DNA of 59,394 bases from Halocatena pleomorpha (GTDB lineage: Archaea; Halobacteriota; Halobacteria; Halobacteriales; Haloarculaceae), in contig NZ_RRCH01000009.1 in the NCBI RefSeq assembly GCF_003862495.1, positions 1-59,394 on the forward strand. The letters are read 5' to 3'. Of the stretch, positions 38,573 to 59,314 are shown in pieces. Made by a program: the position numbers and the translations under genes. Each line of letters opens with the position of its first letter. Position 1 is the first letter of the stretch. The notes beneath the pieces are model-generated. The model did no database searches, was not told where the DNA came from, and saw only the letters and a list, made by a program, of their open reading frames with translations.

Positions 38573-40048
38573 TCACACATGGCTGTGAACCACCTCTGTA
38601 AGCGTTTCGTGTGCCTGTTCGAGCACCGAGCACTGATGGTCGAGCGTCTCACGGTCGACGTCGAGTGCGTCGGCGGTGATATCAAGTTGCGCAGCGACCG
38701 CTGACGGGGCAGGACCACCGCGTGAATCACGGTTTTCGACGCTGTGGACAGGATCGAGCAGTGCACGCAGTTCTTCGCGTGTGAGGTATGTTTCGAGCGG
38801 CTCATCCAGTACGTCTGCCGCGGCGGCTTCGATCGCGTCGACACTGCCACCGTGTTGGGCGGCCTCTGCGAGGATCGCGTGCGCCGTCCGGAAGGGGAGA
38901 CCACACATTGCGAGCCTGTCGGCAACGGCCGTCGCTGTTGTGAAGCCCTCGCCGGCGGCGTCAGCGAGCAGAGAGTCGTTCCACGCCGTGGACGCGACCG
39001 CGCCGGCTGCCACGTCAGTCGCTTCGGTGACAGCGTCGACCGTCGACCACGCGTGACCGCTCGCACGCTGGAGATCAATGTTGTACGCTCTCGGAAGTCC
39101 TTTGAGCGTCGTGAGTAGCCCATCGAGTCCGGCGCTGGCCGTACCGGCTGTTGCCCGCACGAGTTCGAGCGTGTCAGGATTTTTCTTCTGGGGCATGATC
39201 GAGGAAGTCGAGGCGTACTCGTTCGAGAGATCGACGTACCCCTTGTTAGCGAAAACGATCAGGTCTTCTGCCAGTCCCGAGAGATGGGTCGCAAGTCCAG
39301 CGAGTGCCGCCGTGCTGTCGAGCAGGAAATCCCGTGCGGACGCGGCGTCCATCGAGTTCTCAACGATACCCGCAAAGCCGAGTAGTTCGGCGGTCCGCTC
39401 CCGGTCGATCGGAAACGGTGTGCCAGCGAACGCAGCACCGCCCAACGGCGAGCGATTCGTGCGGTCGTAGGCTGCCAGTAACCGCTCGGTGTCGCGGGCG
39501 ATCGCGCGCTCATACGACAGCGCCCAGTGAGCGACCGTCGTCGGTTGGGCGGGTTGGAGATGCGTGAACCCGGGCATCACGGTGTCACCGTGCTCACGGG
39601 CCACGTTCTCTAAGGCCGACCGGAGCGCGAGCGTCGCGGAAACGCTATCGAGCAGATCCTCGCGCAACCGGTAGCGAAGACACGTCGCAACCTCATCGTT
39701 GCGGCTACGGGCGGTGTGCATCTTGCCACCCACCGGACCGACCTGTTCGATGACGGCCGACTCGATGGCTTCGTGAACATCCTCGCCATCAGGTAGTGAG
39801 TTGTGGCCGTCGAGCGCGATCGCTTCGAGCGCGGTGAGGATCTCACTGGCTTCCGACCGCTCGATGATCCCTTGCTCAGCGAGCATCACGACGTGCGCGC
39901 GGTCGACAGCGATGTCCGCCTCGAAGATGCGTTCATCGGCCGCTAGCGAGGAGAGGAATTCCCGTGCCGGTCCGCCGCTGAACCGATCACCACGGACTGC
40001 CGTCCCCGCTCGGTCGAGAGACGCGTCGTTCGATGGGGTTTCAGACAT
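38573..40048 (-). CDS. argH: Argininosuccinate lyase
   Basis: 491 residues. Splits argininosuccinate into arginine and fumarate. The signature of the superfamily is SSIMPQKKNPDTLELVR; other motifs are TARSRNDEVATCLR and GFTHLQPAQPTTVAHW. The start overlaps the argG stop by 1 nt (TAATG). Full-length and apparently intact. Confidence 0.97.
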   Translation of the reverse strand: MSETPSNDASLDRAGTAVRGDRFSGGPAREFLSSLAADERIFEADIAVDRAHVVMLAEQGIIERSEASEILTALEAIALDGHNSLPDGEDVHEAIESAVIEQVGPVGGKMHTARSRNDEVATCLRYRLREDLLDSVSATLALRSALENVAREHGDTVMPGFTHLQPAQPTTVAHWALSYERAIARDTERLLAAYDRTNRSPLGGAAFAGTPFPIDRERTAELLGFAGIVENSMDAASARDFLLDSTAALAGLATHLSGLAEDLIVFANKGYVDLSNEYASTSSIMPQKKNPDTLELVRATAGTASAGLDGLLTTLKGLPRAYNIDLQRASGHAWSTVDAVTEATDVAAGAVASTAWNDSLLADAAGEGFTTATAVADRLAMCGLPFRTAHAILAEAAQHGGSVDAIEAAAADVLDEPLETYLTREELRALLDPVHSVENRDSRGGPAPSAVAAQLDITADALDVDRETLDHQCSVLEQAHETLTEVVHSHV

Positions 40049-41286
40049 TATACGTCAGTGCCACCGTCCATGAGTGCTTCGGGCACATCCGTCTCTTCGG
40101 TCGCAGCGCGAGCAAGCCGGTCCTGATAGCCGTGATACTTCGCTACGCCCGTCGCGTCGGCCTGTTCGATTCCATCGACGGTTTCGGTGTTGAACGACGC
40201 TGCGGATTCAGAGTACACTGCGTACTCGCTCTCGCGGGCAACCGGACGCGCGTGTCCGCCGTCGAGTTTTACGGTGACGGTGCCGGTCACGCGTTGTTGG
40301 GTCGCGTCGATGAAGCCCGACAGCGCGTCGACCAGCGGAGCGGACAACAGGCCTTGGTAGGCCTTCTCGCTCCACTGCTGATCGATGCTCGTCTTCGTCG
40401 AGCGTTCTTCTTGGGTCAACACCAATCCTTCAAGCGCGTCATGTGCAGCCAACAACACCGTGGCGGCCGGGTGCTCGTAGTTCTCCCGGACTTTCAGTCC
40501 GAGCATCCGATCTTCCATCATATCCGTCCGACCGATGCCGTGGCTTCCTGCAAGCGCGTTCAGGCGTTCGATCAGTTCGATGGCGTCGAGTTGTTCGCCG
40601 TCAACGCTGACGGCGTAGCCGTCTTCGAAACCGATTTCGACGAGTTCGCTGTCGGTTCCACTGGGAGGGTCAGTCCACTCGTAGATCTCTTCGGGCGGTA
40701 CGTAGCTCGGATCCTCAAGATCGTCGCCCTCGATCGACCGACTCCAGAGGTTCGTATCGATGCTCCACGCGCCCTCGTTGCCGCCTTCGACCGGCAAGTC
40801 GCGCTTGGCCGCGTACTCAATCTCGTACTCGCGGGTCAGTCCAAGTTCACGCACGGGCGCGATGACGTTCAATTCCGAATCACGCCAGACCGCTTCGAAC
40901 CGAAGTTGATCGTTTCCTTTCCCCGTACAGCCGTGGGCTACGGCGTCACAGCCCTCCTCACGGGCCACATCGAGTATCGCAGAGGCGATAACTGGACGGG
41001 CCAACGCCGTACCGAGTGGATAGCCTTGGTAGTCCGCGTTCGCCCGGACCGACTGCAAGCAGAGTTCCGCGAACTCCTCGCGGGCGTCCACGACGAAGTG
41101 TTCGAGTCCCAGTGCGTCAGCGGTCTCTCGTGCTTCTGCGAATTCGGTATCCGGTTGGCCCACATCGACTGTTACCCCGATCACCTCATCGTAGTCGTAT
41201 TCCTCTTCGAGCAGCGGTACGCAAACGGTCGTATCAAGTCCGCCCGAGAACGCGAGCGCAACTGTATTGGTATCGTTTTCTGACAT
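40048..41286 (-). CDS. argG: Argininosuccinate synthase
   Basis: 412 residues, first gene of the arginine run. Joins citrulline and aspartate using ATP. The PP-loop is LAFSGGLDTTVCVPLL; HGCTGKGNDQLRFE and EGGNEGAWSIDTNLWSRS are family motifs. Upstream (minus strand) lie about 350 untranslated bases with the hairpin array, and a TATA-like CTATACTAC near 41360. Confidence 0.97.
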   Translation of the reverse strand: MSENDTNTVALAFSGGLDTTVCVPLLEEEYDYDEVIGVTVDVGQPDTEFAEARETADALGLEHFVVDAREEFAELCLQSVRANADYQGYPLGTALARPVIASAILDVAREEGCDAVAHGCTGKGNDQLRFEAVWRDSELNVIAPVRELGLTREYEIEYAAKRDLPVEGGNEGAWSIDTNLWSRSIEGDDLEDPSYVPPEEIYEWTDPPSGTDSELVEIGFEDGYAVSVDGEQLDAIELIERLNALAGSHGIGRTDMMEDRMLGLKVRENYEHPAATVLLAAHDALEGLVLTQEERSTKTSIDQQWSEKAYQGLLSAPLVDALSGFIDATQQRVTGTVTVKLDGGHARPVARESEYAVYSESAASFNTETVDGIEQADATGVAKYHGYQDRLARAATEETDVPEALMDGGTDV

Positions 41287-41370
41287 TGGTGGTATTTGGT
41301 GTGTCTACTGGATCCTCTCGACAGTGATTGAAACGCGATTCGACGCCGATCAGGAGAAGTGTAGTATAGT

Positions 41371-41479
41371 CGGGCCTAACGGCCCGGTCGTCGTCGTCGG
41401 GTTACGCCCGACTGCTCAAGGGACGAAGTCCCTCTCTGTCGTCGGACACAGTCCGACTGCCCGAGGCGCTCCGCGCCTC
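41371..41479. repeat. Array of five consecutive perfect hairpins upstream of argG
   Basis: Five different short inverted repeats stand in line: CGGGCC-taac-GGCCCG (41371-41386), GTCGGG-ttacg-CCCGAC (41396-41412), AGGGAC-gaa-GTCCCT (41419-41433), GTCGGAC-aca-GTCCGAC (41441-41457), GAGGCGC-tcc-GCGCCTC (41463-41479). Stems are 6-7 bp, loops 3-5 nt, spacers 6-9 nt. The stems differ from each other, so this is not one repeat copied. The 354-base gap (41287-41640) holds nothing else I can call; the array is 85-190 nt upstream of the argG start. It may be a structured leader RNA, a transposon-end relic, or a folded terminator region for the helicase side. Confidence 0.85.
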
Positions 41480-41640
41480 TTGGCCGGAAAACGAGATCGA
41501 GCCCACGGCTCAGCGCAGATGAGCAGTGATCGTGGGTCCCGGTTTGCATGTACACCTCGTTATTGGTAGAGCAGTATTAAACGCTTTCCGAACGGCAAGT
41601 ATTCTGTGTTGTGTGTTGTCGTAGCGTGTTCGAACGCGGC

Positions 41641-58707: not shown

Positions 58708-59314
58708 TTAGTCGTCGGCGTGGACGACTGGAGCTTTGTCCACGACATGCGCTACGTCGGGATACTGCTGTCTCAATCCGTCGAGATCGCCACGCTGGCG
58801 ATAGTGACAGTACTCCGCCAGCAGTGCGACCAGCGCGGCGGGCGCGCTCTCTGCCTCGGGTTGTTCGGTTATCTCCGTTGGCTCCTGATCATCCGCCGGG
58901 GTGTACACCGACTGCACGACCGTTTCGTCGCGCTGCTCATGGTAGCGCACCCGGCCGCCATTGTCGAACCAGCCGGTGGCGACCAGCTCACCCGTCGCTT
59001 CATAGCGCGTGATGTTCGCAATACCGGGTAGGTCGTCGTAGTTCAGCTGTGACCGACCAAGCCCGGCCGTCGCTAGAATCTCCTCGATCTGCGTGGCGTG
59101 GGCACAGCCTGTACTCCGGCACGGCTTGCATCACCAGAATCGAAGATTCTGGTTAGCAGCCAGAAGCCTTCGGCTTCTGGCGACACCACACGCCGTTTCC
59201 CACGTCCATCACGTAGTACAACTCCGCTTTCGAAATCCGGTCTCGATCATCAAGAGTCGAGATGTTCACCGATTCGCCCAGCCGATCCCAGAACTGAAAC
59301 ACTGGCAGCGTCAT
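58708..59314 (-). pseudogene. Gene of unknown family, split by a palindromic insert
   Basis: The front starts at ATG 59314, preceded by GGGGGG and AGGAG, and reads MTLPVFQFWDRLGESVNIST, LDDRDRISKAELYYVMDVG, then meets the palindromes and stops at 59153 with KPKASGC. The rest continues in another frame: ATQIEEILATAGLGRSQLNY, TRYEATGELVATGWFDNGG, and an acidic tail to the stop at 58708. The second part has no good start codon of its own. Both parts look like one protein of about 190 residues broken in the middle. Family not recognised; the hydrophilic, beta-rich text could come from a virus or plasmid. Confidence 0.55.
59133..59181. mobile_element. Two adjacent perfect palindromes inside a broken gene
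   Basis: ACCAGAATC-gaa-GATTCTGGT (59133-59153) and GCCAGAAGCC-ttc-GGCTTCTGGC (59159-59181), separated by 5 nt. They lie exactly where the reading frame of the surrounding gene is lost. They share the CCAGAA core. This fits a small hairpin element or the end of an IS200/IS605-type transposon, but no target duplication is evident. Confidence 0.5.

Follow-up and report, generated by a model that had tools for sequence, protein, structure and literature searches.

A putative arginine-responsive leader-peptide attenuator upstream of haloarchaeal argG, altered in Halocatena pleomorpha by a mobile palindromic repeat

The window analyzed here is a stretch of 59,394 nt from the haloarchaeon Halocatena pleomorpha (contig NZ_RRCH01000009.1). 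Its minus strand carries argG, the argininosuccinate synthase gene (40048..41286; NCBIfam TIGR00032, 446.8 bits), which is the first gene of an arginine run. Five inverted repeats are found 85-193 nt upstream of the argG start at 41286: at 41371-41386 (6-bp stem, 4-nt loop), 41396-41412 (6-bp stem, 5-nt loop), 41419-41433 (6-bp stem, 3-nt loop), 41441-41457 (7-bp stem, 3-nt loop) and 41463-41479 (7-bp stem, 3-nt loop), separated by spacers of 9, 6, 7 and 5 nt. A Rad3-like helicase ORF is the upstream neighbor of argG and has the same orientation. Because argG lies on the minus strand with the array between these two ORFs, the minus strand was taken as the sense strand of the array. A preliminary description of this DNA had placed five hairpins with short stems and 3-5-nt loops at 41371-41479, in front of the arginine run, and each of them was found there. 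Its spacing of 6-9 nt holds for the first three spacers but not for the fourth, and its distance of 85-190 nt from argG is nearly right.

When the window was simulated 40 times with a first-order Markov model, the largest cluster of such hairpins usually had two and never more than three members, versus the one cluster of five in the real sequence, and the region 41340-41580 folds with z = -3.4. The earlier impression that the array is too regular for chance is supported to this extent, but not the idea of a single regular design, as the five hairpins are two different things: the argG-proximal one differs in nature from the other four. At gathering score, an Rfam scan of the window returned three tRNAs only, and no known leader or riboswitch family.

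The argG-proximal hairpin coincides with the end of a leader ORF on the minus strand (41376..41549; 57 codons plus TAG), which translates as MQTGTHDHCSSALSRGLDLVFRPRGAERLGQSDCVRRQRGTSSLEQSGVTRRRRPGR and has counterparts in other haloarchaeal argG leaders. The best TATA match in a blind search, TTTAATA (41575..41581, minus strand), begins 32 nt upstream of the leader ATG, a distance that fits a predicted leaderless start. The ORF ends in RRRRPGR-stop, four CGA (Arg) codons (41388..41399, minus strand) being followed by CCG GGC CGT TAG. The stop codon (41376-41378) occupies part of the loop and 3' arm of the terminal hairpin, CGGGCC-GTTA-GGCCCG (41371..41386, minus strand), after which comes a G-free tract, ACTATACTACACTTCTCCT, that is devoid of a U-run (41352..41370, minus strand). 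A minimum free energy fold of the leader RNA also contains a start-proximal stem (41498..41541, minus strand).

Upstream DNA was compared at 80 argG loci from other haloarchaea representing about 30 named genera. Leader ORFs were picked blindly, using no reading-frame information, by choosing the ATG preceded, at a distance of 27-36 nt, by the best TATA box, and 81 leaders were scored, namely that of the window, those of 79 loci with enough upstream sequence and that of genome G003. Nearly all argG leaders share a layout of TATA-like box, ATG, stem, CGA codon run and hairpin, with the ATG typically about 31 nt from the first base of the box. In 79 of 81 leaders, three or more of the last 10 codons of the blindly picked ORF encode Arg; argG leaders with at least four such codons number 60 of 80, versus 4.3 expected from shuffled DNA, although related species in the set make these counts non-independent events. 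The Arg share of the last 10 codons is 42%, compared with 15% and 4% in the other two frames and with 15% in base-shuffled ORFs, for which the highest of 200 shuffles reached 19%. Furthermore, CGA accounts for 70% of the Arg codons at leader ends, but for 2% of those in argG and 20% of those in window genes. A pattern combining the codon run and the hairpin was searched for in 117 genomes of the order, none of which contained more than one match, and 13 readable argG loci outside the haloarchaea revealed no convincing cognate leader.

Leader ORFs vary in length between 22 and 87 codons without ever leaving the frame of the codon run, and their N-terminal halves are unrelated except among close species. 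Because the N-termini are unrelated and the length is free, what appears to be conserved is the act of translating the Arg codons rather than a protein. Translation signals and a conserved C-terminus would be expected if the leader encoded a small functional protein, but this freedom of length, together with the unconserved N-terminal half and the absence of a Pfam match for the leader ORF product, makes such a protein extremely unlikely. In at least 15 of 79 leaders scored, a TATA-like box also stands directly before argG, so that in those cases the leader would be only one input rather than the sole control. In two loci of the same genus as the window (L053 and L054), a perfect 8-bp hairpin, ACTGACGA-GCA-TCGTCAGT, lies between the leader and argG, just before the gene.

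Alignment of leader ends with MAFFT followed by RNAalifold predicted no structure, with gaps falling inside the hairpin, and hairpins were for this reason scored per sequence against shuffles. The best hairpin around the stop codon scored 15.8 on average versus 10.1 in shuffled sequences (sd of the mean 0.27). In 72 of 77 leaders, the stop codon is in contact with the hairpin loop. The preliminary description had suggested that relatives be compared for covarying stems, and this comparison showed the terminal hairpin to be retained with compensatory stem changes that keep the pairing (GGGCC/GGCCC, GGCCC/GGGCC, GGGGTC/GACCCC, GGGGC/GCCCC and GGGCCT/AGGCCC). Judged from these sequences, the constant member among the five hairpins is the one at 41371-41386. 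Across leaders, G makes up 2% of positions 10-20 after the leader stop, and no U-run of the kind required of a bacterial intrinsic terminator follows the terminal hairpin. The start-proximal stem is likewise general: in 76 of 77 leaders, five or more long-range pairs involve the first 25 nt. The folding z-score averages -2.2 for the leaders and reaches -5.5 for that of the window. Two conserved stems are thus present in argG leaders; the CGA run offers a weak alternative pairing, and no convincing mutually exclusive structure emerged.

Nucleotide conservation is high around CGACGACC and the hairpin, as would be anticipated if the hairpin and CGA run formed a DNA or RNA operator that binds a regulator, the open frame being incidental. 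Palindromic operators are known at some haloarchaeal genes. This explanation is nevertheless improbable, because the stem varies freely in sequence yet remains paired, because the start, frame and stop of the ORF survive large changes in length, including in-frame insertion of a repeat, and because matching amino-acid leaders occur at pheS and a second trpS (both described below).

Hairpins 2-5 have a different origin. They form two tandem 45-nt copies (41390..41479, minus strand) of a dispersed palindromic repeat, lying in frame within the leader ORF, in which each unit consists of a hairpin, an NNGCA linker, a second hairpin and a GACNNN linker. BLAST of the array against its own genome returned only chance-level matches, and a covariance model was needed for this reason. 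The model, R1, which included the window among its training sequences, matched 41435-41479 with E 3e-13 and 41390-41434 with E 7e-13 in the window's own genome. Rows of the underlying alignment of repeat units were picked for perfect hairpins, and its pair counts were therefore not used as evidence. By this model the repeat is present in 34 of 39 genomes; the genome-wide search that had been proposed for such arrays yielded, at E 0.01, 13 copies in the window's genome, as well as 30 in G003 and 100 in G005. In-frame copies occur inside genes for PEP carboxylase (PEPcase, L245), an ABC transporter (L255) and a glycoside hydrolase (GH3, L251), and others lie beside tnpB-like ORFs (OrfB_IS605/Cas12f1-like) at L133 and L144.

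The argG leaders of the same-genus loci L052, L053 and L054 lack hairpins 2-5, while that of L051 has a longer array and that of G003 a decayed remnant. The leader ORF is open in all of these and in the window, with lengths of 28, 29, 29, 42, 57 and 87 codons; since a full unit equals 15 codons, gain or loss of units preserves the frame. On sequence grounds, hairpins 2-5 are therefore read as copies of a mobile palindromic repeat acquired in this lineage by in-frame insertion into the leader ORF, which they lengthen; they are probably tolerated rather than needed. A CGACGAC linker of the repeat resembles the CGA run of the leader and, as a conjecture, may have guided insertion. The suggestion in the preliminary description of a hairpin-rich relic of a mobile element is in agreement with hairpins 2-5, which are dispersed, sometimes adjacent to tnpB and absent from argG of close relatives, but not with the terminal hairpin. 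Conversely, its structured leader RNA for sensing arginine or tRNA is consistent with the terminal hairpin and with the leader ORF, which it had not seen, but not with the other four hairpins.

The strongly negative folding z-score of the window's leader and the longer array at L051 might suggest that all five hairpins form one functional leader structure of this lineage, either an RNA stabilizer or a protein-binding array. Nothing was found in support of the protein-binding array that had been proposed earlier. A control function of the array as a whole was to have been doubted if close relatives lacked it, as the three same-genus loci do. Together with its decay in G003 and the dispersal of the same units over genomes in unrelated genes, this makes a single functional array highly doubtful, and the separation of the terminal hairpin from the inserted repeat is preferred.

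Several further features of the repeat were observed. Arrays inside ordinary-protein ORFs (L136, L245, L251 and L255) are read as E-G-x-S-P-S-G-S-R-T-x-S-G-D-like sequences. At L133, L137, L138, L141, L142, L144 and L145, a hairpin pair is bracketed by inverted flanks (e.g., CCACGTCGT/ACGACGTGG) and adjoins GGAGGATGTC; the pair, which has tnpB beside it at L133 and L144, may lie within a terminal palindrome of IS605-type elements. The 6-Mb genome G005 (L051, strain YIM A00010) has about 100 scored copies versus 3-30 in other genomes of the genus, and this represents a recent expansion. The CCAGAA palindromes that had been noted at 59.13-59.18 kb are a sister of the repeat located outside the argG leader (59133..59181, plus strand); they follow its layout in that a TAGCA linker connects two long, perfect hairpins, and a near copy occurs at L176 in the same genome.

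Amino-acid-specific leaders were also found at other haloarchaeal genes. Phe-rich ORFs, typically ending in GFGFFFA-stop, lie upstream of pheS in 27 of 44 loci versus 0.1 expected from shuffled DNA, and leader ORFs with a W-x-W motif precede a second, bacterial-type trpS in 4 of 6 loci versus 0.1 expected, the latter set being small and some gene starts uncertain. Cross-controls were flat, with no Phe-rich leaders at argG and no Trp-rich ones at pheS, and the other trpS showed no enrichment of Trp leaders. No convincing cognate leader was seen at hisG (23 readable loci), trpC (30) or argS (28). A few contig-edge loci, among them L307 and L323, were misplaced in the scans of other genes, and two pheS locus sets overlap only by relatedness, not by design.

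Among the pheS loci L324-L367, a leaderless-type uORF with a terminal Phe run is seen, for example, at L335, L351, L352 and L361. In several of these leaders, a start-proximal CCGAACCC is predicted to pair with GGGTTCGG of the Phe codons, while complementarity between the start and the region after the stop is hardly above that of shuffled sequences (19.0 versus 17.4). W-x-W uORFs (MVSTSHANCWRWHVSREVDSIAV and others) are found among the second trpS loci L369-L373, where the stem across the Trp codons varies in sequence and remains paired. The pheS uORF of H. denitrificans, MASEPKRGARASEPTTDGFGFFFLTA, has 26 aa, a mass of 2792 Da and a pI of 5.9. A transcription start site map of H. volcanii describes a long 5'-UTR at pheS with a 26-aa uORF of 2772 Da and pI 5.9; for a tryptophan-tRNA ligase it lists a uORF of 23 aa (Table 2), and its uORF transcripts have 5'-UTRs of 150-250 nt (PMC4983044). 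The same study does not list argG or mention attenuation, and its uORF table is without sequences (PMC4983044).

These leaders at pheS and the second trpS provide the strongest support for attenuation at argG. Taken with the conserved ORF, the leaderless-type start signals, the Arg codons, the frame and the hairpin, all of which are observed, they suggest a regulatory output that we infer: the argG leader is likely an arginine-responsive leader-peptide attenuator, altered in the H. pleomorpha lineage by a mobile palindromic repeat. The transcript would start at or just before the leader ATG, and a ribosome would translate the leader ORF. Under a shortage of charged tRNA-Arg, the ribosome would pause on the CGA run and hold open the 5' arm of the hairpin that follows, allowing argG to be expressed. 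When arginine is plentiful, it would reach the UAG inside the hairpin and leave, whereupon the hairpin would close and argG expression would fall; this sign of the arginine response is an assumption of the model. Because no U-run follows the hairpin, the off signal is expected to be factor-dependent or translational, operating either through a factor such as FttA/aCPSF1 acting on unprotected RNA or through argG translation. FttA prefers U-rich RNA and has been proposed to watch over coupling (PMC11616081).

A different use of the same ORF would be arginine-induced arrest, in which the nascent RRRRPGR and free arginine stall the ribosome near the stop in a peptide-dependent manner, rather than through codon starvation. 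C-terminal residues are indeed conserved besides the codons, and the stop has a fixed place within the hairpin. However, the residue order varies between leaders (RRRRPGR, RPRPGR, RPRRRAL and RRRRRGRF) while the choice of CGA codons is conserved, and the same logic recurs with other residues in the pheS and trpS leaders, so that arrest of this kind is unlikely. Codon-dependent attenuation is fairly probable as a general haloarchaeal mechanism as well, in which leaderless transcripts would carry leader peptides specific for Arg at argG, Phe at pheS and Trp at the second trpS, the argG version having its stop in the hairpin and no U-run.

Gene control in archaea has been described mostly at promoters, and the steering of transcription elongation by ribosomes is still posed as a hypothesis there (PMC11616081). 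A search of the open-access literature found no description of leader-peptide attenuation in archaea, which is not proof of novelty. If the present model is correct, ribosomes would control downstream expression in these organisms, and the conserved Arg leader and its Phe and Trp counterparts at tRNA-synthetase genes offer directly testable cases in the tractable Haloferax. Attenuation would also explain why small ORFs are found in the long 5'-UTRs published for pheS and a trpS of H. volcanii. In addition, the argG leader furnishes an example of a mobile palindromic repeat that appears to have entered a regulatory ORF with its frame unbroken.

Among known systems, the bacterial ribosome-mediated attenuators (trpL, hisL and the pheST leader) resemble the argG leader in having a short ORF with a run of cognate codons before the controlled gene. 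As in the haloarchaeal leaders, their hairpins are placed where a paused ribosome would change them, and both kinds precede a biosynthetic gene and two tRNA-synthetase genes, pheS and trpS. Actinobacterial leaders (PMC1262725) and the ilvB uORF of Corynebacterium (PMC10272879) belong to the same bacterial group. In contrast to these, the argG leader is archaeal, has a predicted leaderless ORF at a TATA promoter, bears its stop codon inside the hairpin and lacks a U-run terminator; by analogy, it would work like a bacterial leader-peptide attenuator, and it is not classed as a member of the bacterial group. The fungal arginine attenuator peptide (arg-2/CPA1 uORF) is similarly an Arg-related uORF before an arginine biosynthetic gene, but its sequence is unrelated to the argG leader. 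It has no Arg run and stalls ribosomes at high arginine. The H. volcanii pheS uORF is as long as the Phe leader of the present analysis and comes close to it in mass and pI, although no attenuation was proposed for the H. volcanii uORFs and argG is absent from their list (PMC4983044).

The repeat has its own parallels. Palindrome-associated elements (PATEs) of Haloquadratum are short, transposase-free palindromic repeats related to IS605 ends (PMC3119063). Like PATEs and IS605-type ends, the present repeat is a short haloarchaeal palindrome, and copies of it adjoin tnpB, but unlike PATEs it is built of tandem 45-nt two-hairpin units and is also found in frame inside genes. Rickettsia palindromic elements are in-frame palindromic insertions in protein genes, and in this respect they are similar to the repeat described here; it differs from them in its 15-codon tandem unit and its host organism, and no kinship in sequence is claimed.
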